DNA of 22,977 bases from Streptomyces diastaticus subsp. diastaticus (GTDB taxonomy: Bacteria > Actinomycetota > Actinomycetes > Streptomycetales > Streptomycetaceae). Positions 1 through 22,977 of this stretch are shown here, piece by piece. The position numbers and the translations under genes are program-made. Numbering within the stretch: position 1 is the stretch's first letter; the number at the start of each line of letters is the position of its first letter. Below the pieces are notes generated by a model. The model did not search any database. It worked only from the letters and a program-made list of their open reading frames with translations, and was not told the DNA's origin. Location of the stretch: assembly GCF_011170125.1 (NCBI RefSeq), contig NZ_BLLN01000007.1, positions 1 through 22,977 on the forward strand, in the 5' to 3' direction.

Positions 1-63
1 GCCAGGCCCGCTGGTCGCGCCTGCGGATCGGCCGGAGCAGCACGTCGCCCTCGCGCAGTTCCA
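1..63 (-). CDS. rimJ: RimJ-like acetyltransferase, N-terminal 21 codons (mirror copy, cut by window edge)
   Basis: Reverse complement of 9439-9501. It encodes the start of the GNAT protein described at 9439-10041, beginning MELREGDVLLRPI. The rest lies outside the window. It is a duplicate produced by the palindrome, not a second gene. Confidence 0.8.
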
Positions 64-80
64 CCGGCCAGTACCGCGGG

Positions 81-601
81 TTCAGCGGCGCTCCCCGGGG
101 CGGGCGGGCCGGCGGGGTGGTCGCCGCCCCGGATCTGGTCCACGGCGTGCGGCAGGAGGCGGCCCAGCACGGCGAGGCCGTCGCGGACGCCACCGGTGGA
201 GCCGGGAAGATTGACGATGAGGGTGCGTCCGGCGAGCCCGGCGAGGCCCCGGGAGAGGCGGCGGTCGGCACCTCGGGCAGGCCCTCGGCCCGGATGGCCT
301 CGGCGATGCCGGGGATCTCGCGGTCCAGCAGGGGACGGGTCGCCTCGGGCGTGCGGTCGGTGGGGCTCAGCCCCGTACCGCCGGTGGTGACGACCACGTC
401 GTAGCCCTCGGTGACCGCGGCGCTCAGGGCCTCGGCGACCGGGTCGCCGTCGGGGACGACGCGCGGGCCCTCGACGGCGAAGCCGAGGCCGGTGAGGGCC
501 TCGGTGATGAGCGGCCCGCCGCGGTCCTCGTAGACCCCGGCGGCGGCGCGGTTGGAGGCGGTGACGACGAGGGCGCGAGGCGTCGACGGCGCGGCGCTCA
601 C
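81..601 (-). pseudogene. mogA: mogA/moaB mirror copy with a one-base frameshift
   Basis: Mirror of the intact gene at 8900-9421. One G is missing in the run around 251-256 (GAGAGGCGGCGG here, GAGAGGGCGGCGG in the mirror copy). This breaks the frame roughly two thirds of the way along, just after the GLPEVPTAALSRG region. The intact reading in the other copy is the family-consistent one, so this is most likely a sequence error and not a real pseudogene. The start GTG overlaps the moaC stop as in the other copy. Confidence 0.85.
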
Positions 602-1125
602 GCGACGGTTCCCTCGGTGCGCCGCCAGGTGCCGGACTTGCCGCCGGTCTTCTCCTCGACGCGGACGTCGGTGATGACGGCGCCCTTGTCGACGGCCTTG
701 ACCATGTCGACCACGGTGAGGGCGGCGACGGTGACGGCGGTGAGCGCCTCCATCTCGACGCCGGTGCGGTCGGTGGTCTTCACGGTGGCGAGGATCTCCA
801 CCGCCTCCTCGGTGACGGCGAGGTCGACCTTGACGCCGGAGACGGCCAGCGGGTGGCAGAGCGGGACGAGGTCGGGGGTGCGCTTGGCGCCCATGATGCC
901 CGCGAGACGGGCGGTGGCGAGGGCGTCGCCCTTGGGGACGCCCTCGCCACGCAGGAGTTCCACCACGCGGGGCGAGACGAGGACCCGGCCGCTCGCGCGG
1001 GCGGTGCGGGCGGTGACGTCCTTCGCGGAGACGTCGACCATGCGGGCCGCCCCGGCCTCGTCGAGGTGGGTGAGCCGGCCCTGCTCAGGGGGGCGGGGGG
1101 TGTCCCCCGGTGTAAACGCTGTCAT
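598..1125 (-). CDS. moaC: Cyclic pyranopterin monophosphate synthase MoaC (mirror copy)
   Basis: Mirror of 8376-8903 with the same 175-residue translation. ATG is chosen at 1125-1123 because the family's conserved region begins about 17 residues later and a GGGAG ribosome-binding sequence precedes it. See the forward copy for functional detail. Confidence 0.9.
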   Translation of the reverse strand: MTAFTPGDTPRPPEQGRLTHLDEAGAARMVDVSAKDVTARTARASGRVLVSPRVVELLRGEGVPKGDALATARLAGIMGAKRTPDLVPLCHPLAVSGVKVDLAVTEEAVEILATVKTTDRTGVEMEALTAVTVAALTVVDMVKAVDKGAVITDVRVEEKTGGKSGTWRRTEGTVA

Positions 1126-1207
1126 GTGCTGTGCGACTCCCGGTCCGCGGCCCACCGCGCCCATGTCGGCCTGTGTGGGCGACCACCGTACCCGCACCGG
1201 GGTCCGG

Positions 1208-2623
1208 TCAGCCGAGCAGGACGACCTCGACCTCGCTGCCCCACGCCGCCCCGGTCGCCGCCTCGGGAAGGACGATGAGGGCGTCGGCGTGGGCGAGGGC
1301 GCCGATGAGGTGGGAGCCGGCGCCGCCGACGGGCCGCACCTCGGGCCGCTCACCACCGGTGTACGTACCGCGCAGGAACTGCCGCTTCCCCTCCGGCGAG
1401 GTGAGCTGCTCGGCCTCCTCGCCGGCGCCGTGCGGCGGCAGCAGGGTGGCGCGGACGGTGGGCCGGTGCAGCTCCTGCAACCCCATCATGGCGCGGATGG
1501 CGGGCCGGACGAAGAGTTCGAAACTGACGTACGAGGAGACCGGGTTGCCCGGGAGGGTCAGGATCGGGGTGCGGTCGGGGCCGATGGTGCCGAAGCCCTG
1601 CGGCTTGCCCGGCTGCATGGCGAGGGTGCGGAAGTCCACGTGGGCCCCGTGGAAGGCCCGCTCTTCCTCCTCGCCGTCCTCTCCCTCGCCCGGCTCGGCC
1701 CGCGCCTCCTCGGGCTCGGCTTCCCCGGCGACGGCGGTGAGTGCCTCCTTGACCACGTCGTACGCGCCGACGCTGACGCCACCGGTGGTGACGAGCAGGT
1801 CGGCGCGGATGAGCTGGTCCTCGATGGTGGCGCGGAGGGTCTCGGCGTCGTCGGTGACGGCGCCGACGCGGTAGGCGATGGCGCCCGCGTCCCTGGCAGC
1901 GGCGGCCAGCGCGAAGCTGTTGGAGTCGTAGATCTGACCGGCGGCCAGCTCCTCGCCCGGCTGGGCCAGTTCGCTGCCGGTGGACAGGACGACGACGCGC
2001 GGGCGCGGGCGGACCCGGGCGGCGGGGCGGCCGATCGCGGAGAGCAGCGCGATCTGCGGCGGGCCGAGGACCGTCCCGGCCTCCAGCGCGACGTCCCCGG
2101 CGCAGACGTCGCCGCCGCGGGTCCGCACGTGGGCCTGCGGGGTGACGGCCCGGTGGACGCGGACCTGGCCACCGGAGCCCTCGGGGGAGGCGCTGTGCGG
2201 GGCCATGGCGCGGACGGGCCCGCCGCCGGTGCCGCCGTCGGTCCACTCGACGGGGACGACCGCGTCGGCGCCGGGGGGCATCGGCGCGCCCGTCATGATG
2301 CGGGCGGCCCGGCCGGGGCCGACCGTCAGCTCGGTGCCGCTGGAGCCGGCCGCCACGTCGCCGATGACGGTGAGGACGGCCGGGGAGGCGTCCGAGGCCT
2401 TCTCGGTGTCGGCGGCGCGGACCGCGTAACCGTCCATGGAGCTGTTGTCGAAGGGGGGCAGCGCGACCGGGACGGTGACCTGCTCGACGAGGACGCAGCC
2501 CTGGGCGTCGAGCAGGTTCAGCTCGATGGGTTCCAGGGGCTGGACCGCGGTGAGGATGTCGTCGAGGTGCTCGGCCACCGACCAGGTGCGCGCGCCGGTG
2601 GCCTGCTCAGTCGTGCTGCTCAA
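1208..2623 (-). CDS. moeA: MoeA/gephyrin-like protein (mirror copy)
   Basis: Mirror of 6878-8293 with the same translation, including the acidic insert. It starts at TTG 2623-2621, four bases after the galU stop. See the forward copy for domains and the Glp interpretation. Confidence 0.9.
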   Translation of the reverse strand: MSSTTEQATGARTWSVAEHLDDILTAVQPLEPIELNLLDAQGCVLVEQVTVPVALPPFDNSSMDGYAVRAADTEKASDASPAVLTVIGDVAAGSSGTELTVGPGRAARIMTGAPMPPGADAVVPVEWTDGGTGGGPVRAMAPHSASPEGSGGQVRVHRAVTPQAHVRTRGGDVCAGDVALEAGTVLGPPQIALLSAIGRPAARVRPRPRVVVLSTGSELAQPGEELAAGQIYDSNSFALAAAARDAGAIAYRVGAVTDDAETLRATIEDQLIRADLLVTTGGVSVGAYDVVKEALTAVAGEAEPEEARAEPGEGEDGEEEERAFHGAHVDFRTLAMQPGKPQGFGTIGPDRTPILTLPGNPVSSYVSFELFVRPAIRAMMGLQELHRPTVRATLLPPHGAGEEAEQLTSPEGKRQFLRGTYTGGERPEVRPVGGAGSHLIGALAHADALIVLPEAATGAAWGSEVEVVLLG

Positions 2624-2627
2624 GGTG

Positions 2628-3530
2628 CTACATCTCCTCGGTGACGTAACTGCGGAGCCAGGCCCGGAAGTCGGGGCCCAGGTCTTCACGTTCGCACGCC
2701 AGTCTGACAATGGCGCGCAGGTAGTCGCCCCGGTCGCCGGTGTCGTAGCGGCGGCCCTTGAAGACCACTCCGTGCACGGGACCGCCGACCTTCTCGTCCT
2801 CGGCGAGCTTCTGCAGGGCGTCGGTGAGCTGGATCTCGCCGCCCCGGCCGGGCGAGGTCTCCCGCAGTATGCCGAAGATGGCGGGGTCCAGGACGTACCG
2901 GCCGATGATGGCGTAGTTGCTGGGCGCCTCGGCCGGGTCGGGCTTCTCGACCAGGTCGGTGACGCGGACGACGTCGTCCTCGCCGGTCGCCTCGACGGCG
3001 GCGCAGCCGTAGAGGTGGATCTGCTCGGGGGCGACCTCCAGCAGGGCGATGACGCTGCCGCCCTCGCGCTCCTGGACCTCGACCATGCGGGCGAGCAGCG
3101 GGTCCCGGGGGTCGATCAGGTCGTCGCCGAGGAGGACGGCGAAGGGCTCGTCCCCGACGTGCGGAGCGGCGCACAGCACGGCGTGACCGAGGCCGCGCGG
3201 GTCGCCCTGGCGGACGTAGTGCATGGTGGCGAGGTCGCTGGACTCCTGGACGCGGGCGAGGCGGGCCTCGTCACCCTTGCGGCTGAGGGCCTGCTCCAGT
3301 TCGTAGTTGCGGTCGAAGTGGTCCTCCAGCGGCCGCTTGTTGCGCCCTGTGACCATGAGGACGTCGGAGAGCCCGGCGGCGACGGCCTCCTCGACGACGT
3401 ACTGGATGGCCGGCTTGTCGACGACAGGAAGCATTTCCTTCGGCGTGGCCTTGGTGGCGGGCAGGAAGCGTGTCCCGAGGCCGGCGGCGGGGACGACCGC
3501 TTTGCTGATCCTGGCGTTCGACTCAGTCAT
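2628..3530 (-). CDS. galU: UTP-glucose-1-phosphate uridylyltransferase (mirror copy)
   Basis: Mirror of 5971-6873, same 300-residue translation. An upstream in-frame extension to 3833 exists but overlaps the divergent cyclo-ligase gene and has no family resemblance, so the ATG at 3530 is used. Confidence 0.92.
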   Translation of the reverse strand: MTESNARISKAVVPAAGLGTRFLPATKATPKEMLPVVDKPAIQYVVEEAVAAGLSDVLMVTGRNKRPLEDHFDRNYELEQALSRKGDEARLARVQESSDLATMHYVRQGDPRGLGHAVLCAAPHVGDEPFAVLLGDDLIDPRDPLLARMVEVQEREGGSVIALLEVAPEQIHLYGCAAVEATGEDDVVRVTDLVEKPDPAEAPSNYAIIGRYVLDPAIFGILRETSPGRGGEIQLTDALQKLAEDEKVGGPVHGVVFKGRRYDTGDRGDYLRAIVRLACEREDLGPDFRAWLRSYVTEEM

Positions 3531-3567
3531 GCCGCTCACCATAACCGCTGTTCGTGCCGGAAATCTG

Positions 3568-3596
3568 TTGATCCGACAAAATAACCCGAATATATG
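3568..3596 (+). promoter_or_regulatory. Sigma-70-type promoter for the cyclo-ligase gene
   Basis: TTGATC (3568-3573) and TATATG (3591-3596) are separated by 17 bases. They lie 24 bases upstream of the cyclo-ligase ATG at 3620 in an AT-rich island that stands out from the GC-rich surroundings. A GAGG ribosome-binding sequence follows around 3606. This resembles the vegetative (HrdB) promoter class. The mirror copy is at 5905-5933 on the minus strand. Confidence 0.55.
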
Positions 3597-3619
3597 CCGA
3601 TTGATGAGGTTTGGTACCG

Positions 3620-4231
3620 ATGAGTGGCACCGATGATGCCAAGCGAAGGTTGCGGCGGGAACTACTCGCCGTGAGGTCGCGGTTGACTGGAGAGGACGCC
3701 CGGGAGACGGCCGCGGTTCTGGCCCGGCACGCCCTGCTGCTGCCCGAGCTGGCCGGCGCCGGGACGGTCGCGGCGTACGTCTCGGTCGGCGGGGAGCCCG
3801 GTACCCGGGCCCTGCTGGAGGAGCTGCGCGCACGCGGCACCCGGGTGCTGCTGCCCGTGCTGCTCCCCGACGACGACCTCGACTGGGCGGTGTACGAGGG
3901 CCCGGACTCGCTGGCCGAGGTGGGACGGGCCGGCCGGCTGACGCTGCGCGAGCCCTCGGGCCCCCGGCTCGGCCCCGAGGCGGTGACCGGGGTGGACGCC
4001 GTCCTGCTGCCGGGCCTGGCGGCGGACCGCGCCGGGCGGCGGCTGGGCCGGGGCGGCGGCAGTTACGACCGGGTGCTGGCGCGGCTGGCCGCGGCCGGGG
4101 CCGATCCGGCGCTGCTGGTCCTGCTCCACGACCACGAGCTGCTGGCCGAGGTGCCGGCCGAGCCGCACGACCGGCCGGTGCACGTGGTGCTCACCCCCTC
4201 CGGCCCGCACCGCGTACGCGGTCGCGGCTGA
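3620..4231 (+). CDS. 5-formyltetrahydrofolate cyclo-ligase (mirror copy)
   Basis: Mirror of 5270-5881, same 203-residue translation. ATG 3620 is preferred over TTG 3611 because a GAGG sequence lies about 10 bases upstream of it. The motif LGRGGGSYDR falls at residues 142-151. See the other copy for details. Confidence 0.9.
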   Translation: MSGTDDAKRRLRRELLAVRSRLTGEDARETAAVLARHALLLPELAGAGTVAAYVSVGGEPGTRALLEELRARGTRVLLPVLLPDDDLDWAVYEGPDSLAEVGRAGRLTLREPSGPRLGPEAVTGVDAVLLPGLAADRAGRRLGRGGGSYDRVLARLAAAGADPALLVLLHDHELLAEVPAEPHDRPVHVVLTPSGPHRVRGRG

Positions 4232-4238
4232 CGGCCCC

Positions 4239-4295
4239 GCACGCACGCGCGGCCCCCGCGACCGGCGGTCGGTCGCGGGGGCCGCGCGTGCGTGC
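4239..4295. terminator. Bidirectional hairpin between convergent genes
   Basis: A perfect 26-base stem (4239-4264 pairs with 4270-4295) has a five-base loop. It begins 7 bases after the cyclo-ligase stop and ends 16 bases beyond the acylase stop, so it can serve both convergent genes. There is no T-tract, which is common for actinobacterial terminators. The mirror copy is at 5206-5262. Confidence 0.75.
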
Positions 4296-4311
4296 CGTGG
4301 GCCTGCCCGGA

Positions 4312-4756
4312 TCAGGGCTTGAGGACCAGGGTCTCCTGGGTGGCCTTCTTGACGGCCTTGTCGGTGAACGCCCAGGGCAGCAGTTCGCCCTTGACCCACT
4401 TCTCCGTCTGGTCGGTGTAGTGGGGGCTGTAGACGTGTCCGGAGGCGCCGGTGAGGTTGATCCACTCGGACTTGTCGAGGTCGCCGAGGTTGACCACCAT
4501 CCGCATGGACGGCACCCAGACGACCTCGTAGCCGCCGGCCGCGTTCCACCCGGTGGCGTTGACGGTGGCCTCGCCGCCGCCGAGGTCCCACGGGCCGCGG
4601 TTGAGGATCTTCTGGACCAGGCCGGGCCCGCTGGTGCCGAGGGTCTGGTTCTTCAGGGTCAGCTGGTGCAGCCGGCCCCAGCTCCAGGAGTCCATGTCCT
4701 TGCCGAGCTTGGCGGTCAGCTCCCAGCGGGCGTCCTCCATGGCCCGCTCGAAGAGC
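4312..4756 (-). CDS. Penicillin-acylase-family protein, C-terminal part (clean copy, cut at the palindrome axis)
   Basis: Reading right to left from the turn, the protein runs LFERAMEDARWELTAKLG, then WGRLHQLTLKNQTLG, then a segment with GGGEATVNATGWN and VPSMRMVVNLGDLDKS, ending TLVLKP. This is the pattern of the C-terminal end of the large (beta) subunit of penicillin/acyl-homoserine-lactone acylases, N-terminal nucleophile hydrolases that cleave amide bonds and are usually exported. Only about 145 of the roughly 800 or more residues expected are here. The nucleophile serine, spacer peptide and signal sequence would be upstream and are missing because the sequence folds back at 4751. It is convergent with the cyclo-ligase gene and shares its terminator. 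Family assignment is by recognition of the C-terminal pattern; the substrate cannot be told. Confidence 0.75.
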
Positions 4757-5189
4757 TGGTCATGGAGGACGCCCGCTGGGAGCTGACCGCCAAGCTCGGC
4801 AAAGGACATGGACTCCTGGAGCTGGGGCCCGGCTGCACCAGCTGACCCTGAAGAACCAGACCCTCGGCACAGGGGCCCGGCCTGGTCCAGAAGATCCTCA
4901 ACCGCGGCCCGGTGGGACCTCGGCGCGGCGAGGCCACCGTCAACGCCACCGGGTGGAACGCGGCGGCGCGCTACGAGGTCGTCTGGGTGCCGTCCATGCG
5001 GATGGTGGTCACCTCGGCGACCTCGACAAGTCCGAGTGGATCAACCTCACCGGCGCCTCCGGACACGTCTACAGCCCCCACTACACCGACCAGACGGAGA
5101 AGTGGGTCAAGGGCGAACTGCTGCCCTGGGCGTTCACCGACAAGGCCGTCAAGAAGGCCACCCAGGAGACCCTGGTCCTCAAGCCCTGA
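4746..5189 (+). pseudogene. Penicillin-acylase C-terminal part, damaged mirror copy
   Basis: Mirror of 4312-4756 but with about eight small insertions, deletions or substitutions between 4757 and 5035: an extra A near 4800, an extra C near 4828, changes near 4880, an extra G near 4910, losses near 4925 and 5010, and changes near 4965-4970. These split the reading among three frames until GDLDKSEWINLTG, after which it matches to the stop. The clean copy gives one continuous frame, so these look like sequence errors next to the turn. Confidence 0.8.
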
Positions 5190-5205
5190 TCCGGGCAGGC
5201 CCACG

Positions 5206-5262
5206 GCACGCACGCGCGGCCCCCGCGACCGACCGCCGGTCGCGGGGGCCGCGCGTGCGTGC
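5206..5262. terminator. Bidirectional hairpin (mirror of 4239-4295)
   Basis: Same perfect 26-base stem and five-base loop, between the damaged acylase copy and the cyclo-ligase gene, whose stop codon lies just 8 bases away. Confidence 0.75.
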
Positions 5263-5269
5263 GGGGCCG

Positions 5270-5881
5270 TCAGCCGCGACCGCGTACGCGGTGCGGGCCG
5301 GAGGGGGTGAGCACCACGTGCACCGGCCGGTCGTGCGGCTCGGCCGGCACCTCGGCCAGCAGCTCGTGGTCGTGGAGCAGGACCAGCAGCGCCGGATCGG
5401 CCCCGGCCGCGGCCAGCCGCGCCAGCACCCGGTCGTAACTGCCGCCGCCCCGGCCCAGCCGCCGCCCGGCGCGGTCCGCCGCCAGGCCCGGCAGCAGGAC
5501 GGCGTCCACCCCGGTCACCGCCTCGGGGCCGAGCCGGGGGCCCGAGGGCTCGCGCAGCGTCAGCCGGCCGGCCCGTCCCACCTCGGCCAGCGAGTCCGGG
5601 CCCTCGTACACCGCCCAGTCGAGGTCGTCGTCGGGGAGCAGCACGGGCAGCAGCACCCGGGTGCCGCGTGCGCGCAGCTCCTCCAGCAGGGCCCGGGTAC
5701 CGGGCTCCCCGCCGACCGAGACGTACGCCGCGACCGTCCCGGCGCCGGCCAGCTCGGGCAGCAGCAGGGCGTGCCGGGCCAGAACCGCGGCCGTCTCCCG
5801 GGCGTCCTCTCCAGTCAACCGCGACCTCACGGCGAGTAGTTCCCGCCGCAACCTTCGCTTGGCATCATCGGTGCCACTCAT
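5270..5881 (-). CDS. 5-formyltetrahydrofolate cyclo-ligase (MTHFS)
   Basis: 203 residues, normal for the family, which converts 5-formyl-THF to 5,10-methenyl-THF with ATP and Mg in cytosolic one-carbon metabolism. Visible signatures are the basic N-terminal helix RRELLAVRSRLT, the central DAVLLPGLAADRAG, the nucleotide/folate-binding motif RRLGRGGGSYDR (residues 140-151, usually GxRLGYGGGYYDR) and a C-terminal VPAEPHDRPVHVVLTP. It is divergent from galU across 89 bases, an arrangement also found in mycobacteria (Rv0992c-Rv0993, from memory). ATG 5881 has a GAGG upstream; an in-frame TTG nine bases earlier is less likely. The promoter TTGATC-17-TATATG is at 5905-5933. Nothing is odd beyond R and S replacing the usual aromatic residues in the motif. 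Confidence 0.92.
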   Translation of the reverse strand: MSGTDDAKRRLRRELLAVRSRLTGEDARETAAVLARHALLLPELAGAGTVAAYVSVGGEPGTRALLEELRARGTRVLLPVLLPDDDLDWAVYEGPDSLAEVGRAGRLTLREPSGPRLGPEAVTGVDAVLLPGLAADRAGRRLGRGGGSYDRVLARLAAAGADPALLVLLHDHELLAEVPAEPHDRPVHVVLTPSGPHRVRGRG

Positions 5882-5904
5882 CGGTACCAAACCTCATCAA
5901 TCGG

Positions 5905-5933
5905 CATATATTCGGGTTATTTTGTCGGATCAA
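5905..5933 (-). promoter_or_regulatory. Cyclo-ligase promoter (mirror copy)
   Basis: Reverse complement of 3568-3596: TTGATC, 17-base spacer, TATATG. It sits in the 89-base divergent gap between the cyclo-ligase and galU. Confidence 0.55.
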
Positions 5934-5957
5934 CAGATTTCCGGCACGAACAGCGGT

Positions 5958-5963
5958 TATGGT
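5958..5963 (+). promoter_or_regulatory. Candidate -10 element for a leaderless galU transcript
   Basis: TATGGT ends seven bases before the galU ATG (5971). This spacing would put transcription initiation at or next to the A of the ATG. No convincing -35 hexamer is seen 17-18 bases upstream, and there is no clear ribosome-binding site apart from GGTGAG, which overlaps this element. Confidence 0.35.
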
Positions 5964-5970
5964 GAGCGGC

Positions 5971-6873
5971 ATGACTGAGTCGAACGCCAGGATCAGCAAA
6001 GCGGTCGTCCCCGCCGCCGGCCTCGGGACACGCTTCCTGCCCGCCACCAAGGCCACGCCGAAGGAAATGCTTCCTGTCGTCGACAAGCCGGCCATCCAGT
6101 ACGTCGTCGAGGAGGCCGTCGCCGCCGGGCTCTCCGACGTCCTCATGGTCACAGGGCGCAACAAGCGGCCGCTGGAGGACCACTTCGACCGCAACTACGA
6201 ACTGGAGCAGGCCCTCAGCCGCAAGGGTGACGAGGCCCGCCTCGCCCGCGTCCAGGAGTCCAGCGACCTCGCCACCATGCACTACGTCCGCCAGGGCGAC
6301 CCGCGCGGCCTCGGTCACGCCGTGCTGTGCGCCGCTCCGCACGTCGGGGACGAGCCCTTCGCCGTCCTCCTCGGCGACGACCTGATCGACCCCCGGGACC
6401 CGCTGCTCGCCCGCATGGTCGAGGTCCAGGAGCGCGAGGGCGGCAGCGTCATCGCCCTGCTGGAGGTCGCCCCCGAGCAGATCCACCTCTACGGCTGCGC
6501 CGCCGTCGAGGCGACCGGCGAGGACGACGTCGTCCGCGTCACCGACCTGGTCGAGAAGCCCGACCCGGCCGAGGCGCCCAGCAACTACGCCATCATCGGC
6601 CGGTACGTCCTGGACCCCGCCATCTTCGGCATACTGCGGGAGACCTCGCCCGGCCGGGGCGGCGAGATCCAGCTCACCGACGCCCTGCAGAAGCTCGCCG
6701 AGGACGAGAAGGTCGGCGGTCCCGTGCACGGAGTGGTCTTCAAGGGCCGCCGCTACGACACCGGCGACCGGGGCGACTACCTGCGCGCCATTGTCAGACT
6801 GGCGTGCGAACGTGAAGACCTGGGCCCCGACTTCCGGGCCTGGCTCCGCAGTTACGTCACCGAGGAGATGTAG
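5971..6873 (+). CDS. galU: UTP-glucose-1-phosphate uridylyltransferase GalU
   Basis: Makes UDP-glucose from UTP and glucose-1-phosphate in the cytosol, feeding cell-wall glycans, trehalose and galactose metabolism. 300 residues, typical bacterial size. Signatures: nucleotide-binding VVPAAGLGTRFLPATKATPKEMLP (starting at residue 12), DKPAIQYVVEEA (38-49), GDD (135-137), VEKP (194-197), GEIQLTDAL (231-239) and YDTGDRGDYL (262-271). ATG 5971 is chosen because the conserved region begins nine residues in; a second in-frame ATG four codons upstream is possible. It is the first gene of a co-directional set: its stop is four bases before the moeA TTG, and the sequence GAGGAG at its end probably serves as the moeA ribosome-binding site, so the two are likely translationally coupled. 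Confidence 0.96.
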   Translation: MTESNARISKAVVPAAGLGTRFLPATKATPKEMLPVVDKPAIQYVVEEAVAAGLSDVLMVTGRNKRPLEDHFDRNYELEQALSRKGDEARLARVQESSDLATMHYVRQGDPRGLGHAVLCAAPHVGDEPFAVLLGDDLIDPRDPLLARMVEVQEREGGSVIALLEVAPEQIHLYGCAAVEATGEDDVVRVTDLVEKPDPAEAPSNYAIIGRYVLDPAIFGILRETSPGRGGEIQLTDALQKLAEDEKVGGPVHGVVFKGRRYDTGDRGDYLRAIVRLACEREDLGPDFRAWLRSYVTEEM

Positions 6874-6877
6874 CACC

Positions 6878-8293
6878 TTGAGCAGCACGACTGAGCAGGC
6901 CACCGGCGCGCGCACCTGGTCGGTGGCCGAGCACCTCGACGACATCCTCACCGCGGTCCAGCCCCTGGAACCCATCGAGCTGAACCTGCTCGACGCCCAG
7001 GGCTGCGTCCTCGTCGAGCAGGTCACCGTCCCGGTCGCGCTGCCCCCCTTCGACAACAGCTCCATGGACGGTTACGCGGTCCGCGCCGCCGACACCGAGA
7101 AGGCCTCGGACGCCTCCCCGGCCGTCCTCACCGTCATCGGCGACGTGGCGGCCGGCTCCAGCGGCACCGAGCTGACGGTCGGCCCCGGCCGGGCCGCCCG
7201 CATCATGACGGGCGCGCCGATGCCCCCCGGCGCCGACGCGGTCGTCCCCGTCGAGTGGACCGACGGCGGCACCGGCGGCGGGCCCGTCCGCGCCATGGCC
7301 CCGCACAGCGCCTCCCCCGAGGGCTCCGGTGGCCAGGTCCGCGTCCACCGGGCCGTCACCCCGCAGGCCCACGTGCGGACCCGCGGCGGCGACGTCTGCG
7401 CCGGGGACGTCGCGCTGGAGGCCGGGACGGTCCTCGGCCCGCCGCAGATCGCGCTGCTCTCCGCGATCGGCCGCCCCGCCGCCCGGGTCCGCCCGCGCCC
7501 GCGCGTCGTCGTCCTGTCCACCGGCAGCGAACTGGCCCAGCCGGGCGAGGAGCTGGCCGCCGGTCAGATCTACGACTCCAACAGCTTCGCGCTGGCCGCC
7601 GCTGCCAGGGACGCGGGCGCCATCGCCTACCGCGTCGGCGCCGTCACCGACGACGCCGAGACCCTCCGCGCCACCATCGAGGACCAGCTCATCCGCGCCG
7701 ACCTGCTCGTCACCACCGGTGGCGTCAGCGTCGGCGCGTACGACGTGGTCAAGGAGGCACTCACCGCCGTCGCCGGGGAAGCCGAGCCCGAGGAGGCGCG
7801 GGCCGAGCCGGGCGAGGGAGAGGACGGCGAGGAGGAAGAGCGGGCCTTCCACGGGGCCCACGTGGACTTCCGCACCCTCGCCATGCAGCCGGGCAAGCCG
7901 CAGGGCTTCGGCACCATCGGCCCCGACCGCACCCCGATCCTGACCCTCCCGGGCAACCCGGTCTCCTCGTACGTCAGTTTCGAACTCTTCGTCCGGCCCG
8001 CCATCCGCGCCATGATGGGGTTGCAGGAGCTGCACCGGCCCACCGTCCGCGCCACCCTGCTGCCGCCGCACGGCGCCGGCGAGGAGGCCGAGCAGCTCAC
8101 CTCGCCGGAGGGGAAGCGGCAGTTCCTGCGCGGTACGTACACCGGTGGTGAGCGGCCCGAGGTGCGGCCCGTCGGCGGCGCCGGCTCCCACCTCATCGGC
8201 GCCCTCGCCCACGCCGACGCCCTCATCGTCCTTCCCGAGGCGGCGACCGGGGCGGCGTGGGGCAGCGAGGTCGAGGTCGTCCTGCTCGGCTGA
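6878..8293 (+). CDS. moeA: MoeA/gephyrin-like protein (molybdopterin molybdenumtransferase; probable Glp orthologue)
   Basis: 471 residues, slightly long for MoeA (about 400-430). MoeA inserts molybdate into adenylylated molybdopterin. Visible: FDNSSMDGYAV (about 58-68), domain II RTRGGDVCAGD, the MoCF domain PRPRVVVLSTGSEL with TTGGVSVGAYD (from 279), LPGNPVSSYVSFELF (from 357) and a C-terminal beta-barrel ending ALIVLPEAATG. An acidic, low-complexity insert of about 26 residues (about 300-325, EAEPEE...GEDGEEEE) interrupts the MoCF domain. The TTG start is supported by GAGGAG ten bases upstream. Position between galU and rimJ/sepX matches the corynebacterial glp locus, whose product works in cell division with the membrane receptor GlpR, so a divisome role is inferred in addition to, or in place of, cofactor synthesis. 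A separate moeA elsewhere cannot be excluded. Confidence 0.9.
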   Translation: MSSTTEQATGARTWSVAEHLDDILTAVQPLEPIELNLLDAQGCVLVEQVTVPVALPPFDNSSMDGYAVRAADTEKASDASPAVLTVIGDVAAGSSGTELTVGPGRAARIMTGAPMPPGADAVVPVEWTDGGTGGGPVRAMAPHSASPEGSGGQVRVHRAVTPQAHVRTRGGDVCAGDVALEAGTVLGPPQIALLSAIGRPAARVRPRPRVVVLSTGSELAQPGEELAAGQIYDSNSFALAAAARDAGAIAYRVGAVTDDAETLRATIEDQLIRADLLVTTGGVSVGAYDVVKEALTAVAGEAEPEEARAEPGEGEDGEEEERAFHGAHVDFRTLAMQPGKPQGFGTIGPDRTPILTLPGNPVSSYVSFELFVRPAIRAMMGLQELHRPTVRATLLPPHGAGEEAEQLTSPEGKRQFLRGTYTGGERPEVRPVGGAGSHLIGALAHADALIVLPEAATGAAWGSEVEVVLLG

Positions 8294-8375
8294 CCGGACC
8301 CCGGTGCGGGTACGGTGGTCGCCCACACAGGCCGACATGGGCGCGGTGGGCCGCGGACCGGGAGTCGCACAGCAC

Positions 8376-9421: not shown

Positions 9422-9438
9422 ACCCGCGGTACTGGCCG

Positions 9439-11397: not shown

Positions 11398-11432
11398 GCC
11401 CCACCCCGGCCACCAGCACCGGATTACCGACC

Positions 11433-11446: not shown

Positions 11447-11448
11447 GC

Positions 11449-11454: not shown

Positions 11455-11468
11455 TTCACCCGTTGCAA

Positions 11469-11542: not shown

Positions 11543-11552
11543 CGCAAGTAAG

Positions 11553-11586: not shown

Positions 11587-11649
11587 TGCTGTGCCGGTTT
11601 CCGCGCCGGCTCGCCCCATGGCTCAGGGAGCGGGGCGCCGAGGTTCTCG

Positions 11650-14344: not shown

Positions 14345-14374
14345 GCCGGCCGCACCGGCCCGAGCGGGCGGGGC

Positions 14375-14746: not shown

Positions 14747-14760
14747 GACCGGTCGTCCTC

Positions 14761-14784
14761 CGGATGCGGGTGCGGATGCGGGTG
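14761..14784. repeat. 12-base tandem repeat, two units
   Basis: CGGATGCGGGTG occurs twice in a row, followed by GGGGTG, in the 47-base gap between the GNAT stop and the hypothetical gene's ribosome-binding site. The mirror copy is at 17866-17889. Confidence 0.8.
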
Positions 14785-14793
14785 GGGGTGCGG

Positions 14794-15327: not shown

Positions 15328-15389
15328 GCGGATCAGGGTACTTCTATGCGGAGGCGGGGTGCCGGGGCGAACCTCGGTAGGGTGCCGGG
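15328..15389. promoter_or_regulatory. Divergent promoter region, GNAT and xthA, both with leaderless-type -10 elements
   Basis: On the plus strand TAGGGT (15378-15383) lies six bases before the xthA ATG. On the minus strand TACCCT (15335-15340 on the plus strand) lies seven bases before the GNAT ATG. Neither gene has a convincing ribosome-binding site or -35 hexamer in the 62-base gap. Confidence 0.4.
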
Positions 15390-16184
15390 ATGCTCACCGT
15401 CACCACTGTGAATGTAAACGGCCTGCGGGCCGCGGCCAAGAAGGGCTACGTCGAGTGGCTCGCCGCCACGGACGCCGACGTCGTCTGCCTCCAGGAGGTG
15501 CGCGCCGAGGAGTCCCAGCTCCCGGAGGCCGTGCGGGCTCCCGAGGGCTGGCACGTCGTGTACGCGCCCGCCGCGGCCAAGGGCAGGGCCGGAGTGGCGT
15601 TGCTCACGCGGCGCGAGCCGGAGCGGGTGCGGGTCGGCTTCGGCAGCGAGGAGTTCGACGGAAGCGGGCGGTACGTCGAGGCGGACCTGCCCGGGGTCAC
15701 CGTGGCCAGCCTCTACCTTCCCTCCGGTGAGGTCGGCACCGAGCGGCAGGACGAGAAGGAGCGGTTCATGGCCGAGTTCCTGGAGTACCTCCGGGGGCTG
15801 CGGGCGCGGGCCGCCGCGGACGGCCGCGAGGTCGTGGTGTGCGGCGACTGGAACATCGCCCACCGGGAGGCCGACCTCAAGAACTGGCGCGCCAACCGCA
15901 AGTCCGCCGGCTTCCTCCCCGAGGAGCGGGCCTGGCTCGACCGGGTCTACGCGGAGGCCGGCTACACCGACGTGATGCGCGCGCTCCACCCGGACCAGGC
16001 CGGGCCCTACTCGTGGTGGTCCTACCGGGGCCGTGCCTTCGACAACGACTCGGGCTGGCGCATCGACCTGCACGTCGCCACCCCCGGTCTCGCGGCCCGC
16101 GCGGTCAAGGGGCTGGTGGAGCGGGCGGCGACGCACGAGGAGCGCTGGTCGGACCACGCGCCGGTGACGGTCGCCTACGAGTGA
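15390..16184 (+). CDS. xthA: Exodeoxyribonuclease III (AP endonuclease)
   Basis: 264 residues of the exonuclease-endonuclease-phosphatase fold, cleaving at abasic sites and removing 3' blocking groups in base-excision repair. Catalytic signatures are complete: TTVNVNGLRAAAKKG (5-19), DVVCLQEVR (30-38, metal-binding E36), SLYLPSGEVG (107-116), CGDWNIAHREADLKNW (151-166, D153 and N155), SWWSYRGRAFDNDSGWRIDLH (208-228, D226) and SDHAPV (254-259, D255 and H256). ATG 15390 begins two residues before the first strand. Intact in both palindrome copies. Immediately downstream the sequence approaches the second turn. Confidence 0.96.
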   Translation: MLTVTTVNVNGLRAAAKKGYVEWLAATDADVVCLQEVRAEESQLPEAVRAPEGWHVVYAPAAAKGRAGVALLTRREPERVRVGFGSEEFDGSGRYVEADLPGVTVASLYLPSGEVGTERQDEKERFMAEFLEYLRGLRARAAADGREVVVCGDWNIAHREADLKNWRANRKSAGFLPEERAWLDRVYAEAGYTDVMRALHPDQAGPYSWWSYRGRAFDNDSGWRIDLHVATPGLAARAVKGLVERAATHEERWSDHAPVTVAYE

Positions 16185-16275
16185 ACCCCGCCGCGGGCGT
16201 GAACCCGCCCGGTGGCGTCCGGTGGCGGACCGCCTCCGCTACTCGCCCGGCCCGCCCCCGGCCGCCGCTCCGCTG

Positions 16276-16317
16276 CCGCCCGCTGGCCAAGAGCGTCCGC
16301 CCGCTGGCCAAGAGCGT
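16276..16317. repeat. 21-base perfect tandem duplication in the palindrome loop
   Basis: 16276-16296 and 16297-16317 are the same 21 bases and encode RPLAKSV twice in one plus-strand frame. The duplication straddles the inner edge of the left arm, so it may come from slippage at the turn and not from the genome. Confidence 0.85.
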
Positions 16318-16420
16318 GGTCGAGGCGGAGCTCTCCCTGGCGATGGACCGCCACCTCGCGGCCCTGCGGCAGCGGGAGGCGGCGGCCGGGGGGCGGGCCG
16401 GGCGAGTAGCGGATGGCGGT
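16280..16420 (+). other. Fragment of an unrecognised coding sequence at the second turn
   Basis: The unpaired loop and start of the right arm read LAKSVVEAELSLAMDRHLAALRQREAAAGG in one plus-strand frame, a helix-like stretch. In the right arm it runs towards the xthA copy and ends near GGCGAGTAG (16401-16409), if one frame change is allowed. This suggests the last 40-45 codons of a gene convergent with xthA whose 5' part was lost at the fold-back. No family is recognised. Confidence 0.3.
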
Positions 16421-16465
16421 CCCGCCCACCGGACGCCACCGGGCGGGTTCACGCCCGCGGCGGGT

Positions 16466-17260
16466 TCACTCGTAGGCGACCGTCACCGGCGCGTGGTCCG
16501 ACCAGCGCTCCTCGTGCGTCGCCGCCCGCTCCACCAGCCCCTTGACCGCGCGGGCCGCGAGACCGGGGGTGGCGACGTGCAGGTCGATGCGCCAGCCCGA
16601 GTCGTTGTCGAAGGCACGGCCCCGGTAGGACCACCACGAGTAGGGCCCGGCCTGGTCCGGGTGGAGCGCGCGCATCACGTCGGTGTAGCCGGCCTCCGCG
16701 TAGACCCGGTCGAGCCAGGCCCGCTCCTCGGGGAGGAAGCCGGCGGACTTGCGGTTGGCGCGCCAGTTCTTGAGGTCGGCCTCCCGGTGGGCGATGTTCC
16801 AGTCGCCGCACACCACGACCTCGCGGCCGTCCGCGGCGGCCCGCGCCCGCAGCCCCCGGAGGTACTCCAGGAACTCGGCCATGAACCGCTCCTTCTCGTC
16901 CTGCCGCTCGGTGCCGACCTCACCGGAGGGAAGGTAGAGGCTGGCCACGGTGACCCCGGGCAGGTCCGCCTCGACGTACCGCCCGCTTCCGTCGAACTCC
17001 TCGCTGCCGAAGCCGACCCGCACCCGCTCCGGCTCGCGCCGCGTGAGCAACGCCACTCCGGCCCTGCCCTTGGCCGCGGCGGGCGCGTACACGACGTGCC
17101 AGCCCTCGGGAGCCCGCACGGCCTCCGGGAGCTGGGACTCCTCGGCGCGCACCTCCTGGAGGCAGACGACGTCGGCGTCCGTGGCGGCGAGCCACTCGAC
17201 GTAGCCCTTCTTGGCCGCGGCCCGCAGGCCGTTTACATTCACAGTGGTGACGGTGAGCAT
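16466..17260 (-). CDS. xthA: Exodeoxyribonuclease III (mirror copy)
   Basis: Mirror of 15390-16184, same 264-residue translation. Duplicate created by the palindrome. Confidence 0.93.
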   Translation of the reverse strand: MLTVTTVNVNGLRAAAKKGYVEWLAATDADVVCLQEVRAEESQLPEAVRAPEGWHVVYAPAAAKGRAGVALLTRREPERVRVGFGSEEFDGSGRYVEADLPGVTVASLYLPSGEVGTERQDEKERFMAEFLEYLRGLRARAAADGREVVVCGDWNIAHREADLKNWRANRKSAGFLPEERAWLDRVYAEAGYTDVMRALHPDQAGPYSWWSYRGRAFDNDSGWRIDLHVATPGLAARAVKGLVERAATHEERWSDHAPVTVAYE

Positions 17261-17322
17261 CCCGGCACCCTACCGAGGTTCGCCCCGGCACCCCGCCTCC
17301 GCATAGAAGTACCCTGATCCGC

Positions 17323-17856
17323 ATGAACATGCATTCCCTGCGCCCGGTCGCCTTCGACCACCCCGACGCCGTCCAGCTCAACGACGAGGTCCAGCTCGAA
17401 TACGCCGAGCGGTACGGCGACGACGGCGACGCCACCTGGCTCGACCCGGGCATGTTCGTCCCGCCGCACGGGCTGTACCTGCTCGCCTACGACGGACGGG
17501 GCCGCCCGGTGGCCTCCGGCGGCTGGCGCCCCCAGGACGCCAACGACGAGGCGTACTCCGACGGCGACGCCGAGCTGAAGCGCATGTTCGTCATCCGCGA
17601 GGCCCGGGGCCACGGCCTGGCCCGGCGCATCCTCGCGGCGCTGGAGGAGGACGCGCGGGCCGCCGGGCGCACCCGCATGGTCCTGGAGACCGGCACGAAG
17701 CAGCCCGAGGCGATCAACCTGTACGCCTCCAGTGGCTACGCCCCGTGCGCCAAGTTCGGCCTGTACCGCTTCGACGAGCTGAGCCGCTGCTACGCCAAGC
17801 CGCTGAACCCCGCCGCCGCGGCGGCCCGCCCCGAGCCGACCGCCGTCACCGCCTGA
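17323..17856 (+). CDS. GNAT-family N-acetyltransferase (mirror copy)
   Basis: Mirror of 14794-15327, same translation, with TACCCT seven bases before the ATG. Confidence 0.9.
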   Translation: MNMHSLRPVAFDHPDAVQLNDEVQLEYAERYGDDGDATWLDPGMFVPPHGLYLLAYDGRGRPVASGGWRPQDANDEAYSDGDAELKRMFVIREARGHGLARRILAALEEDARAAGRTRMVLETGTKQPEAINLYASSGYAPCAKFGLYRFDELSRCYAKPLNPAAAAARPEPTAVTA

Positions 17857-17903
17857 CCGCACCCCCACCCGCATCCGCACCCGCATCCGGAGGACGACCG
17901 GTC

Positions 17904-18275
17904 ATGCCGGACACCGCATCGCCGCGACCGGCCGGCGACGCCCCCGGGCTGTGGCGCCTGCACACCCGCGCCACCCCGCCCCGGCACGTCGCCGACCTGC
18001 ACGTCGACGGCTCGGACTTCCCCTGGCTGACCGCCGCCTTCCGGCCCCTGGCCCCCTACGAGGAGCACCGCCCCCTCTTCGTCCGTCTCGCCGACCTGAG
18101 CGAGACCGAGGAGTGGGAGGCGTTCGACGCGTGCTGGTCGGAGCTGAACCGGACCCTGGCGCTCCACACGCCCGAGGGCGTTCCCGTCGCCGACTTCCTG
18201 CTGCATGTGGAGGACGACGACAGCCGCGCGAGCTTCCGCTGGATCGACGAGCCCGCCGAGGGCCCGCCGGCGTGA
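17904..18275 (+). CDS. Conserved hypothetical protein (mirror copy)
   Basis: Mirror of 14375-14746, same 123-residue translation, preceded by GGAGGA. Confidence 0.78.
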   Translation: MPDTASPRPAGDAPGLWRLHTRATPPRHVADLHVDGSDFPWLTAAFRPLAPYEEHRPLFVRLADLSETEEWEAFDACWSELNRTLALHTPEGVPVADFLLHVEDDDSRASFRWIDEPAEGPPA

Positions 18276-18305
18276 GCCCCGCCCGCTCGGGCCGGTGCGG
18301 CCGGC

Positions 18306-19109
18306 TCAGTCCACTCCGGTGACGAACTCCACGAGGGCCTCCCCCGTCTCCTCGGGCTGCTCCAGGTGCGGCAGGTGCCCGGCACCGTCGATCACCGTGA
18401 GGGTGGCGTGGGGGACCAGCCGGCGGATCGCCTCGGCGTCCGCGACCGTGGTGAAGGAGTCGTCGGCGCCGACCACGACCAGCACGGGCTCGGTCACGGC
18501 CGACAGCGTCGCCTCGTAGTCCGCTCGCTCCGCGCGGCCGCGCAGGGCCGCTGCGGCGCCCTCCGGGTCGGTGCCGCGCATCATGCGGAGCACGTGCGCG
18601 GCCGCGTCCGGCTTCGCCTCGACGTTGTACGGCGCGAGCATCCTGCCGATCACCTCGTCCGCGTACCCGCCCATCCCCTCCGCGAGCAGCCGCTCGGCCA
18701 GCGCGAGCCGGCCCACCCGGCCTTCCTCGGTCTCGGCCGGGTAGGAGGTGCCGGCCAGCACCAGTGCCCGCACCCGCTCCGGGTGCAGCCGGCGGATCTC
18801 CATGGTGATCTGGCCGCCCATGGAGACCCCGCCGACCACGGCGTCCGCGATGCCCAGGTGGTCGAGTAGGGCGACCACGTCCCCGGCGAACACCGGGAAC
18901 GGTGTGCGCCCCGGCACCACCTGGCTCTCCCCGTACCCCCGCAGATCCGGCAGCACCACCCGGCACCCGGCCCCGGCCAGCCGCCGGGCCTGCGCCCGCC
19001 ACAGGCTCCGGTCGAAGGGGTGCCCGTGCACCAGCACCACCGGCGTCCCGCCCTCCGGCCCCCACTCCTCGTATGCCAGCCGCACCCCGTCGACCTCGTA
19101 AGTCCCCAT
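18306..19109 (-). CDS. Alpha/beta hydrolase (mirror copy)
   Basis: Mirror of 13541-14344, same 267-residue translation. Confidence 0.9.
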   Translation of the reverse strand: MGTYEVDGVRLAYEEWGPEGGTPVVLVHGHPFDRSLWRAQARRLAGAGCRVVLPDLRGYGESQVVPGRTPFPVFAGDVVALLDHLGIADAVVGGVSMGGQITMEIRRLHPERVRALVLAGTSYPAETEEGRVGRLALAERLLAEGMGGYADEVIGRMLAPYNVEAKPDAAAHVLRMMRGTDPEGAAAALRGRAERADYEATLSAVTEPVLVVVGADDSFTTVADAEAIRRLVPHATLTVIDGAGHLPHLEQPEETGEALVEFVTGVD

Positions 19110-19669
19110 GCGGGCAGCGTAGATGAGCGGGCCCCGGCCGGACACGCGCTGTGCGGCGGCTCGGTCGGGCAGCCGGTTGCGGCGCGGGCGCAGGATGCGC
19201 TCGGTACCGGCCGCGAGGGTCGCCACGGCCACCGCCGCCTCTCCCCCACCGGGGCAGCCGCACCGGCGGGGCGAAGGCGCCCGGTGGTGCCGGTCGGACC
19301 GGGCTCTCGGCGGAGGCGGGGTCAGGGTGAGCTGGTGCTCGGTCCCGTCGAGGGTCACGTTCCGGCGCGCTCCAGCCCGAAGCCGCTCATCGCCACCTCC
19401 ACGAACCCGCCCGGGGACGGGGAGGGCGGCCGGCCGCCGACAGCCGGCCTGCCTCGCGGTACAGGCCGGCCGTGGCCTCGCCCGACGGCTGGTGCTGCCC
19501 GTGCCGCACGCCGGCGGAGTACACGGCCACCGTGCACCCGGCCTCGGTGAGCCGCAGGTGGAACAAGGCCCGGAACGGCACCCGCCACCAGCGGAACCGC
19601 TCCAGGGCCCGCCCGTCGCCGGCTCGGCCCGGCGCCGCCGCCTCTCCCCGAACAGGCCGCTCCCTCTCC
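19110..19669 (-). pseudogene. Degraded unrecognised coding region (mirror copy)
   Basis: Mirror of 12981-13540 with the same frame changes at the same places. Confidence 0.38.
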
Positions 19670-20669
19670 TCACGCGTCCGGTTCGGCCGCGCAGGCGAGG
19701 TCCCGCGCGGGCCGTTGCCCGGTGGTCAGGTACGTCGTCGGCGCAAGGGTCGGCGCCGAAGGGGTAGACCCCGTGGCCGCCCCGGTCGACGGTGACCAGC
19801 CCGGCCCGGTCACCGAACGCCCGCCGCAGCGCCTTCGCCCCGGCGAGCGGGGTGCCCGGGTCCCGCTCGTTCTGGACGAGGAGGAGGTTGGAGGGGCCCT
19901 GGTCGTCGACGCGCACGGGCTTCTCGACCCAGGAACGCGGCCGGAAGGCGCAGGGCCCGATGTCGGCCGTGGCGCCGCCGAGCAGGGGGTACCGCCCGCT
20001 GTCGGCCCGCACGTCACGCTGGTACTCCCGGATGGTGCGCGGCCACGGGGAGTCGCCGCAGATCACGGCGAACCGCGCGGACCTGAGCGCCTCCAGGCCG
20101 GGGAAGGGCGGCTGTTCCGGTACCGGCCCGCCGGTGTCGAGCGCCTGCCGGATCTCTGCCAGCTCCGGCATGTCGGCGTCGGCGTAGAGCCAGTCGTAGG
20201 TGATGCCCCGGAAGGCCGTTTCGTCCCGGCCCTGGACCGGCTCCCGCTCCAGCCGCCGGGCCAGCTCCTGGCAGGTCGCGCGCACCTGCCGCGGCGTGGT
20301 GCCGAGCCCGTACTCGGGGCGGGCTGCGACGTACGCCGCGAAGTCCGGGAAGCGGTCCTCCAGCCCGCGGGCGGACAGCCGCATGGCCCGGTGGTCGTAC
20401 CCGCCGGGGCCCAGGTTGCTGTCGAGCACGATCCGGTCGCCGCGTCCGGGGAAGAGCGAGGCGTACGCGGTGCCGAGCTGCGTGCCGCAGGAGGCACCGA
20501 GGTAGGACACCCGCTCCTCGCCGAGGGCCGCCCTGATCCGGTCCATGTCGCGGGCGACGTCGGCGGTGCCGATGTGCGGCAGGAGCGGCGCCGAGGGGGA
20601 GGCGGCGCACCGCTCGGCGACCTGCCGGGCGCGGTCCGCCTCGCGGACGACGTCCCCCGGGGGTGTGCG
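19670..20669 (-). pseudogene. Tripeptidyl-aminopeptidase-like remnant (mirror copy)
   Basis: Mirror of 11981-12980. The catalytic motifs, missing 5' part and late frameshift are the same as in the other copy. Confidence 0.72.
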
Positions 20670-21000
20670 CCCAGGAGGGCTCCGTGAGGATCCGTTCCAG
20701 AGCGCGGCCGGCGAGCTCGCGCAGACCGGTCGGATCCGGCAGGGGCGTCCCGGGTCCGCGGACGGGGCCGGCCGGCTCGCCGCCCGAGCACTGCACGGCG
20801 ACGAGGCAGGGCCGCGGCCACCGCCCGCTGCGTCTCGGACGCGTCGACCTCCGCCTCGGCGCCGTCGAGCACCTGGAGGAAGGCGGTACGCACGGCCTCG
20901 CGGCGTTCCCTCTCGGCCACGCCCCCGACTCGCCGCAGAAGTCCCCCGCCGCGTCGTTGCCGAACGGCCCTACGCCCCAGGTCCCCGACAGCGGCGGCAC
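20670..21000 (-). pseudogene. DUF4259-like remnant (mirror copy)
   Basis: Mirror of 11650-11980. Both internal frameshifts are present, as in the other copy. Confidence 0.68.
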
Positions 21001-21063
21001 CGAGAACCTCGGCGCCCCGCTCCCTGAGCCATGGGGCGAGCCGGCGCGGAAACCGGCACAGCA

Positions 21064-21097
21064 GAAAGCCCCTCCCAGGGTGACCCCGGGAGGGGCT
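21064..21097 (-). terminator. tRNA-Ala terminator (mirror copy)
   Basis: Reverse complement of 11553-11586: ten-base stem with a pyrimidine run after it on the minus strand. Confidence 0.83.
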
Positions 21098-21107
21098 CTT
21101 ACTTGCG

Positions 21108-21181
21108 TGGACCTGAGGGGATTCGAACCCCTGACCCCCTCGATGCGAACGAGGTGCGCTACCGGACTGCGCCACAGGCCC
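21108..21181 (-). tRNA. tRNA-Ala (CGC), mirror copy
   Basis: Reverse complement of 11469-11542 with no base changes. It should not be counted as a second tRNA gene. Confidence 0.95.
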
Positions 21182-21252
21182 TTGCAACGGGTGAAACTTT
21201 AGCACCCCGATCGGGGTGGTCGGTAATCCGGTGCTGGTGGCCGGGGTGGGGC

Positions 21253-22386
21253 TCATTCGTTGGCCGCGCGGGGGCGGTCGCCTTCGTCGTACTGGTCGAA
21301 GAGGGGGGTGCGGCCTCGTTCGCGGGAGCGGCGGGCGGAGGCGGCACGTCGGGCCGGGGCGGCCTCCGCGGGCTCCTCGGGGGCGTCCCCCGCGGGGGCC
21401 TCGCCGCCGCCGGTGTCCGGGGCGGCGCTGGAACGGGCGGAGCTCCAGGTGTCGGGGGCGCCGAGGTCGACCGGCGGGGTGGCGCGGGGGGCGACGGGGG
21501 CCGTGACGTAGGTGGGGAGGGGGACGGGGACGGGGTCCCAGCTGTCCCCGTCGGCCGGCAGGCGGCGGGCGCGCTGCTGGTCGACCCACTCGGCGTGGTC
21601 GGTCTGCTCGACCAGTGCTCTGCGGTCGGCGGCGAGCGCGGTGCGCTCGGGGTCGGGGGCCGGGGCGGGCTCCTCGGCCTCCTCGATCTGCTCGGTGGGG
21701 TGGTCACGGCGGCGGCCGCGCTCGCGTACGTGCTGGGCGGCGACCTCGGCCTGACGGCGGTCCATCGCGTAGACGAAGCGGCGGCGCTCCTGGCGGCGCA
21801 GGTAGGCGATGTAGGCGCTGAGGAGGATCGCGGGGATCGCGGGGGCCCACAGGAGGGCGAGGCCGCCCACGGCGGCGGCGACCGCGCCGAGGGTGAAGGC
21901 GACGAAGAGGAGCATCGTGGTGCGGCGGCGGCGCGCGAGGACCTTGGAGCGCCGGGCGCGCGCGGTGGCGCCGGGATCGGCCGGGCGGTGGGCGGGGACC
22001 TGCTGCGGCGCGGGCCGCTCCTGCCGGGGAGGCTGCCCGGGCCGGGGCGCGGTGCGGCGCGGCGGCGCGGGCTCCTCACGTACCGGGGGCATGGCGAAGG
22101 ACCGGACGTCGACCGATCCGGTCCCGGCGTCCGGGGCGCGGGTCGCGCCGTCGGCCGGGTCGCCCTCGCCGGAGGGCTCGCCGGTGCCGGCGGCGCGGGC
22201 CTGGGCGGCACCCTTGGCGTAGCGCCGCTCCATCCCCGCGCGTCCGGACAGGAGCCGGATGGCGGTGCTGAAGCGTTCCGTCGGACGGGCTTCGTTCAAC
22301 TCGTCCTGCCGACGGAGCCACATGGGCACCAAGTAGGCGGCCCAGGCCCCCACGATGACTGCGTAAATGAGGCCGCTGCTGCTCAC
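21253..22386 (-). CDS. sepX: SepX/GlpR-like membrane protein (mirror copy)
   Basis: Mirror of 10264-11397, same 377-residue translation. Confidence 0.83.
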   Translation of the reverse strand: MSSSGLIYAVIVGAWAAYLVPMWLRRQDELNEARPTERFSTAIRLLSGRAGMERRYAKGAAQARAAGTGEPSGEGDPADGATRAPDAGTGSVDVRSFAMPPVREEPAPPRRTAPRPGQPPRQERPAPQQVPAHRPADPGATARARRSKVLARRRRTTMLLFVAFTLGAVAAAVGGLALLWAPAIPAILLSAYIAYLRRQERRRFVYAMDRRQAEVAAQHVRERGRRRDHPTEQIEEAEEPAPAPDPERTALAADRRALVEQTDHAEWVDQQRARRLPADGDSWDPVPVPLPTYVTAPVAPRATPPVDLGAPDTWSSARSSAAPDTGGGEAPAGDAPEEPAEAAPARRAASARRSRERGRTPLFDQYDEGDRPRAANE

Positions 22387-22609
22387 GACTCACACGGTAG
22401 AGGGGTTTCGTCGGGGCCATCCGCCAATTGAACCGGTGTGTCGCACGATCTGGCTGATATCTCCAGAGTTTTTTCCTACAGATGTGATCGGACGATCGCA
22501 ACTCCGCGACAATCGGGTGATCGAACCCTAAAGAATTCGAACGCTTATTCGTATTTCCGTGATCACGGTTGTGGTGTGCGGATTTCGCGGCGGAGCGGTG
22601 GTTCCCGCC
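22387..22609 (-). promoter_or_regulatory. Regulatory gap upstream of sepX (mirror copy, one extra base)
   Basis: Mirror of 10042-10263 with one additional A near 22499-22501 (GCAACTCC against the expected GCACTCC). The palindrome CCGTGATCACGG is at 22557-22568. Confidence 0.4.
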
Positions 22610-22977
22610 TCAGGCCGTGGGGTGGGGCCGGGCGCGGCGCCAGCGGCGCAGGACACCGTCGGGTACTTCCTCCGCCGTGAGTGCGAATACCAGGTGGTCG
22701 CGCCAGGCTCCGTCGATATGCAGATAGCGGGGGCGCAGCCCTTCCTCGCGGAATCCGAGTTTCTCGACGACACGGCGGCTCGGCCCGTTCTCGGGGCGGA
22801 TGCAGACCTCGATCCGGTGCAGTCCGACGCCCCGGAAGCAGTGGTCGACGGCGGCTGCGACGGCGGTCGGCATCACGCCGCGCCCGGCGACGTCCTGGTC
22901 CACCCAGTAGCCGATGTGGGCGGAGCACATCGAACCCCAGGTGATCCCGGCGACGGTCAGCTGACCGACGAGGCGGC
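22610..22977 (-). CDS. rimJ: RimJ-like acetyltransferase, C-terminal part (mirror copy, cut by window edge)
   Basis: Mirror of 9674-10041, covering the last 122 codons and including the acetyl-CoA-binding loop. The first 78 codons are beyond the window; the opposite edge (1-63) carries the first 21 codons on the same strand, leaving about 172 bases of the gene unrepresented on this strand. Confidence 0.88.
   Translation of the reverse strand, partial: RLVGQLTVAGITWGSMCSAHIGYWVDQDVAGRGVMPTAVAAAVDHCFRGVGLHRIEVCIRPENGPSRRVVEKLGFREEGLRPRYLHIDGAWRDHLVFALTAEEVPDGVLRRWRRARPHPTA

Follow-up and report, generated by a model that had tools for sequence, protein, structure and literature searches.

The window analysed here is the whole of a single contig (C7; 22,977 bp) belonging to a nine-contig genome assembly of 7,083,172 bases (7.08 Mb; G000). 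Its gene content is contained in a unique map of 11.6 kb, the forward-strand segment 4751–16325 (segment B), which Pfam families, a tRNA gene and colinearity with related genomes all identify as ordinary chromosome. Ten ORF proteins, encoded on this map outside about 11.4–14.8 kb, were scanned against Pfam, and nine of them were assigned to a family. These are penicillin amidase (the 3′ part of the gene), 5-FTHF cyclo-ligase, nucleotidyl transferase (presumably galU-like), MoeA, MoaC, MoCF_biosynth (presumably mog-like), acetyltransferases (one of which we take to be rimJ-like) and Exo_endo_phos (presumably xthA-like), these nicknames being informal or carried over from a first-pass annotation of the sequence. 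No replication or partition family occurs among these ten proteins, the tenth of which gave no Pfam match. A tRNA-Ala gene lies at 11469–11543. Between the acylase and the 5-FTHF cyclo-ligase genes there is a terminator-like, near-perfect hairpin of 57 nt, which the window carries at both 4239–4295 and 5206–5262.

Palindromic layout of the window

The remainder of the contig repeats this map in the opposite orientation. By inverted-repeat comparison, positions 1–4750 (segment A, minus strand) are the reverse strand of 4751–9502, and positions 16326–22977 (segment C, minus strand) are that of 9674–16325. The arms of the first palindrome (257–4490 and 5011–9244; 4,234 nt) and of the second (10150–16188 and 16462–22500; 6,039 nt) are 100% complementary. 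With one-base shifts they continue to 1/9502 and 9674/22977, that is, as far as both ends of the contig. The left axis falls at 4750.5–4752 and the right one at 16325–16325.5. The two contig ends map to 9502 and 9674 on the unique map, only 172 bases apart and both within the rimJ-like acetyltransferase gene (9439–10041); as represented in the contig, the reverse strand lacks about 172 bases. Such a layout is far beyond chance. The first-pass annotation had described two nested palindromes with axes at 4751 and about 16325, segment B being the full forward strand and A plus C its reverse strand less about 172 bases in rimJ, and our recalculation of arms and axes agrees with this description throughout.

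Native copies of the sequence in the assembly and in relatives

Most of the unique map exists a second time in the assembly, in a non-palindromic form. The terminal part of contig C5 (2,710,683 bases; 2.71 Mb), from C5:2701764 to its last base at 2710683, corresponds to the window read from 16279 down to 7366 on the minus strand. Over 7366–16270, segment B differs from it by 12 one-base indels and no substitution; eight of the indels lie in the last ~620 bases of C5 and four no more than 140 bases from the right axis, and the 8,207 bases of 7979–16185 show no difference at all. Segment C is nearly identical as well (one mismatch and four gap positions in 6,685 columns). Contamination by another strain was rejected on this absence of substitutions in segment B together with the near-identity of segment C. 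C5 runs past the right axis into non-palindromic sequence, and no palindrome was found in its 14.7-kb end piece; since C5 continues in this way, chromosomal DNA does not stop at the right turn.

The remaining 2.6 kb of the map (4751–7365, forward strand) is present in no other contig, and its status was judged from other genomes. Window positions 4760–9500 were matched in 21 of the 21 genomes searched, G000 itself included, and three relatives (G007, G009 and G005) were compared in detail. The unique map is colinear with all three, in long blocks of ~72–78% identity, and in each of them aligned blocks span the region of C5 where the right turn occurs. The exception is a stretch at about 11.55–14.85 kb which is unaligned in the three relatives but present in C5; this strain-variable segment of ~3.3 kb (window 11550–14850) adjoins the tRNA-Ala gene. 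In the three relatives the end of C5 is followed by the extra 2.6 kb of C7, by a gap of ~3.8–3.9 kb and by the beginning of contig C2. The spacing between blocks beyond the left axis is 3,889, 3,906 and 3,782 bases, and the start of C2 aligns from its base 2, 24 and 1, respectively. This shared order places C7 at the assembly break between C5 and C2. C7 thus supplies 2.6 kb of real chromosome that extends into the gap and is absent elsewhere in the assembly, and it ends short of C2.

The penicillin-acylase gene lies mostly within the missing piece beyond the left axis. When a 640-residue acylase fragment of a relative was compared with G000, only residues 482–640 had a close match, which was in C7; the other matches, in C2 and C5, were 29% and 44% identical. 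A search of 2.9 kb of the G009 gap region against the G000 DNA returned one weak match only, which agrees with a gap at this place. It had been anticipated that sequence flanking both axes would prove to be normally placed. At the right axis this is borne out within the assembly itself, where C5 crosses the turn unbroken; the left turn is crossed only in the relatives, the assembly having its gap there. Nor does the locus have the position expected of a terminal-protein linear replicon end: in each of the single-contig genomes G005, G007, G009 and G012, both ends of the record are 1.0 Mb or more away from it. A plasmid origin was also considered and rejected: only 3 of 72,556 plasmid records match the query 4760–16280 by megablast, and they cover 8%, 4% and 1% of it.

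The turns and a second palindromic contig

The two turns of C7 are asymmetric. The left one (4735–4765) lies inside the penicillin-acylase gene and shows no adapter remnant; by eye, its loop comprises about 21 nt, all native, and the native stem seen around GCTC-GAA-GAGC is imperfect. The right one (16279–16325) lies just past the xthA-like gene, and its arms stop at two different native positions, C5:2701764 and C5:2701691, so that one reaches 73 nt further than the other; a native unit of ~21 nt appears, again by eye, to be repeated there. The differences between arms are mainly indels and adjoin the turns. On the left, 15 of 17 fall at 4751–5011, within 261 bases of the axis, and on the right 55 of 56 fall at 16186–16325, within 140 bases of it, the latter partly as a product of the unequal loop. 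One of the two copies of the acylase sequence is clean over 159 residues and the other broken. This clustering would fit a situation in which few reads crossed the turns. A generic test of hairpin strength did not single out either turn, 6.8% of 400 random sites scoring as high as the right turn and 29.5% as high as the left. The overlap between the outgoing and returning strands is likewise short (by eye, about 4 nt on the right and 1 nt on the left; the chance of an overlap of at least 4 nt is P 0.033).

Among the nine contigs, long palindromes were found in C7 and C8 only (C4, C6 and C9 were examined whole and the four large contigs at their ends). C8 (23,403 bp) forms one palindrome over its whole length, with an axis near 11,702–11,710 and a unit of 11.7 kb. 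Its arms correspond to the normal starts of C3 (8,467 bases) and C1 (7,806 bases), which overlap each other by 4.57 kb. Both of these contigs continue beyond the match with C8, and no palindrome was present in the 15 kb examined of each; C3 crosses the C8 axis and C1 passes the C8 end. The turn of C8 coincides with a native hairpin in C3 (near 8430–8463) that has an 11-bp perfect stem and a 12-nt loop, with nothing inserted, and at the junction the strand that returns has exactly 11 nt in common with native C3 sequence. In random fold-backs an overlap of at least 11 nt has a probability of about 0.00005 (200,000 trials, loops of 3–79 nt), a test computed for the C8 junction, the overlaps in C7 having been judged by eye. 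The open end of C8 is not hairpin-rich: of 400 random sites, 96.3% equalled or exceeded its score. In both palindromes of C7 and in C8, the second half lies within 200 bp of the first and on the opposite strand.

Origin of the palindromes

We consider it almost certain that C7 is an assembly artefact derived from one ordinary chromosomal locus. That the contig is an artefact and not a real hairpin-ended replicon, as the first-pass annotation had also proposed, is strongly supported by comparison with C5, C2, C8 and the three relatives. Hairpin-capped or dog-bone DNA formed in the cell, either at short inverted repeats by ODIRA or by a telomere resolvase, is one rival reading, and the turn of C8 does lie at a native interrupted inverted repeat, the type of site on which ODIRA is described as acting in PMC4689423. 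The dog-bone intermediate presented there is a hairpin-capped duplex that turns at native, short interrupted inverted repeats, which C7 and C8 would resemble. However, ODIRA as outlined in that account is a yeast model, named as origin-dependent, whereas here, of the four sites at which C7 and C8 turn or end, three are crossed by the single-copy contigs C5, C3 and C1. A native inverted repeat is clear only in C8, with its 11-bp stem, and is weak at both turns of C7. The clustering of arm differences at the C7 turns also speaks against such DNA, as does the lack of a replication family among the ten scanned proteins.

Replicons with hairpin telomeres of the N15 type, which are made by a telomere resolvase, have the dumbbell topology that C7 would possess if taken at face value. 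Unlike them, C7 carries core-type chromosomal genes with native copies in megabase contigs, and the G000 genome has no match to the resolvase family PF16684; resolvases of other families would escape this search, whose control run picked out Synechococcus elongatus alone among 14 named genomes. A telomere-resolvase replicon was rejected on the absence of this match. An in-cell hairpin of any of these kinds is thus highly improbable, and we think it just as improbable that hairpin-capped, dog-bone-like molecules of ~11.6 kb form in vivo in this bacterium at short inverted repeats native to it, in small amounts alongside the intact chromosome, and were captured as C7 and C8. The length of the palindromes and their 100% identical cores could also come from an inverted duplication fixed in the strain's chromosome, but C5 carries the locus in single copy past the right axis and the relatives are colinear there; such a duplication was rejected on these grounds and has, in our judgement, scarcely any chance of being correct.

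How the artefact arose is a matter of lesser certainty. A fold-back of library molecules is in our opinion the most likely route, a preference that we hold with some reserve. A strand end would snap onto its own neighborhood, be copied or joined, and then be read as a forward strand followed by its reverse; the turns would have formed during library preparation and not in the cell. PMC12870357 describes fold-back reads in ONT genomic DNA whose halves are separated by little sequence or none, and virtually none of them in PacBio HiFi data; given this near-absence in HiFi, the fold-back route depends on the sequencing platform. The artefact reads described there resemble C7 and C8 in that their two halves map to one place on opposite strands and other sequence crosses the site normally. 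They differ in being raw reads, where ours are assembled contigs, one of which (C7) has two turns. The principal alternative among library artefacts is a SMRTbell-like molecule of 11.6 kb, both of whose hairpin adapters were missed, so that reading went round it repeatedly and the assembly became a circle, cut open near 9502–9674. That C7 amounts to one lap minus 172 bases, and that the unit of C8 is of nearly equal length (11.7 kb), would both follow naturally from such a molecule. But adapter-like sequence is lacking at all three turns: compared with adapter letters they score 8, 8 and 10, with a random mean of about 9, and scores at least equal to theirs occur in 182, 186 and 53 of 200 random pieces. 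The turn of C8 coincides with a native hairpin and carries no insertion, although the consensus may have lost an adapter. The native-hairpin turn of C8 and the absence of adapter-like sequence at the three turns make fold-back molecules more plausible than missed adapters, a preference that is clear in C8 but weak in C7, and we regard the missed-adapter route as unlikely. We rate as somewhat more doubtful the formation of the palindromes by a polymerase, in a whole-genome amplification that preceded long-read sequencing. Amplification also yields inverted chimeras and palindromic reads, as PMC6218980 relates, and the long artificial palindromes that confuse long-read assembly in that account resemble C7 and C8; moreover, both turns of C7 skip or repeat tens of bases. 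Nevertheless, long palindromes are confined to two of the nine contigs, and four others, checked at their ends, reach 0.4–2.7 Mb.

The library fold-back has difficulties of its own. The junction overlaps of C7 are short and the hairpin test gives no support at its turns, the arm differences of C8 are not confined to its turn (of 99, 53 lie at 2000–3499, away from the turn, and 19 in the last bin beside it), and the 172-base closeness of the C7 ends would be coincidental had a pair of unrelated fold-back reads simply been joined. Such closeness may also come about when an assembler allows every read a single use and halts at the meeting point of the two return walks. The adjoining ends could mean either that no unused reads were left to the assembler or that one molecule was lapped once; as between one dumbbell lapped once and two joined fold-back reads, the closeness favors the single lap. 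The first-pass annotation saw the window as about one lap around an 11.6-kb dumbbell; the layout is indeed that of a lap less 172 bases, and a single dumbbell molecule of that size is a possible source. The turning reads may have survived as a small contig because few normal reads span the break between C5 and C2.

As biology, the window is ordinary chromosome and has no significance. Its interest is one of quality control, at least two of the nine contigs of this assembly being palindromes of the fold-back type. Such contigs duplicate genes, break reading frames beside their turns and can pass for inverted duplications or hairpin replicons. Several other contig ends overlap one another, the end of C1 with that of C2 (9.39 kb), the end of C4 with the start of C6 (1.68 kb) and the end of C6 with that of C9 (0.92 kb), and from these overlaps the assembly can probably be ordered further. 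A repeat of 0.9 kb, possibly an insertion element, occurs in inverted orientation within C9 (16066–16960 and 21145–22039) and once more near the start of C5, at C5:9592–10485.
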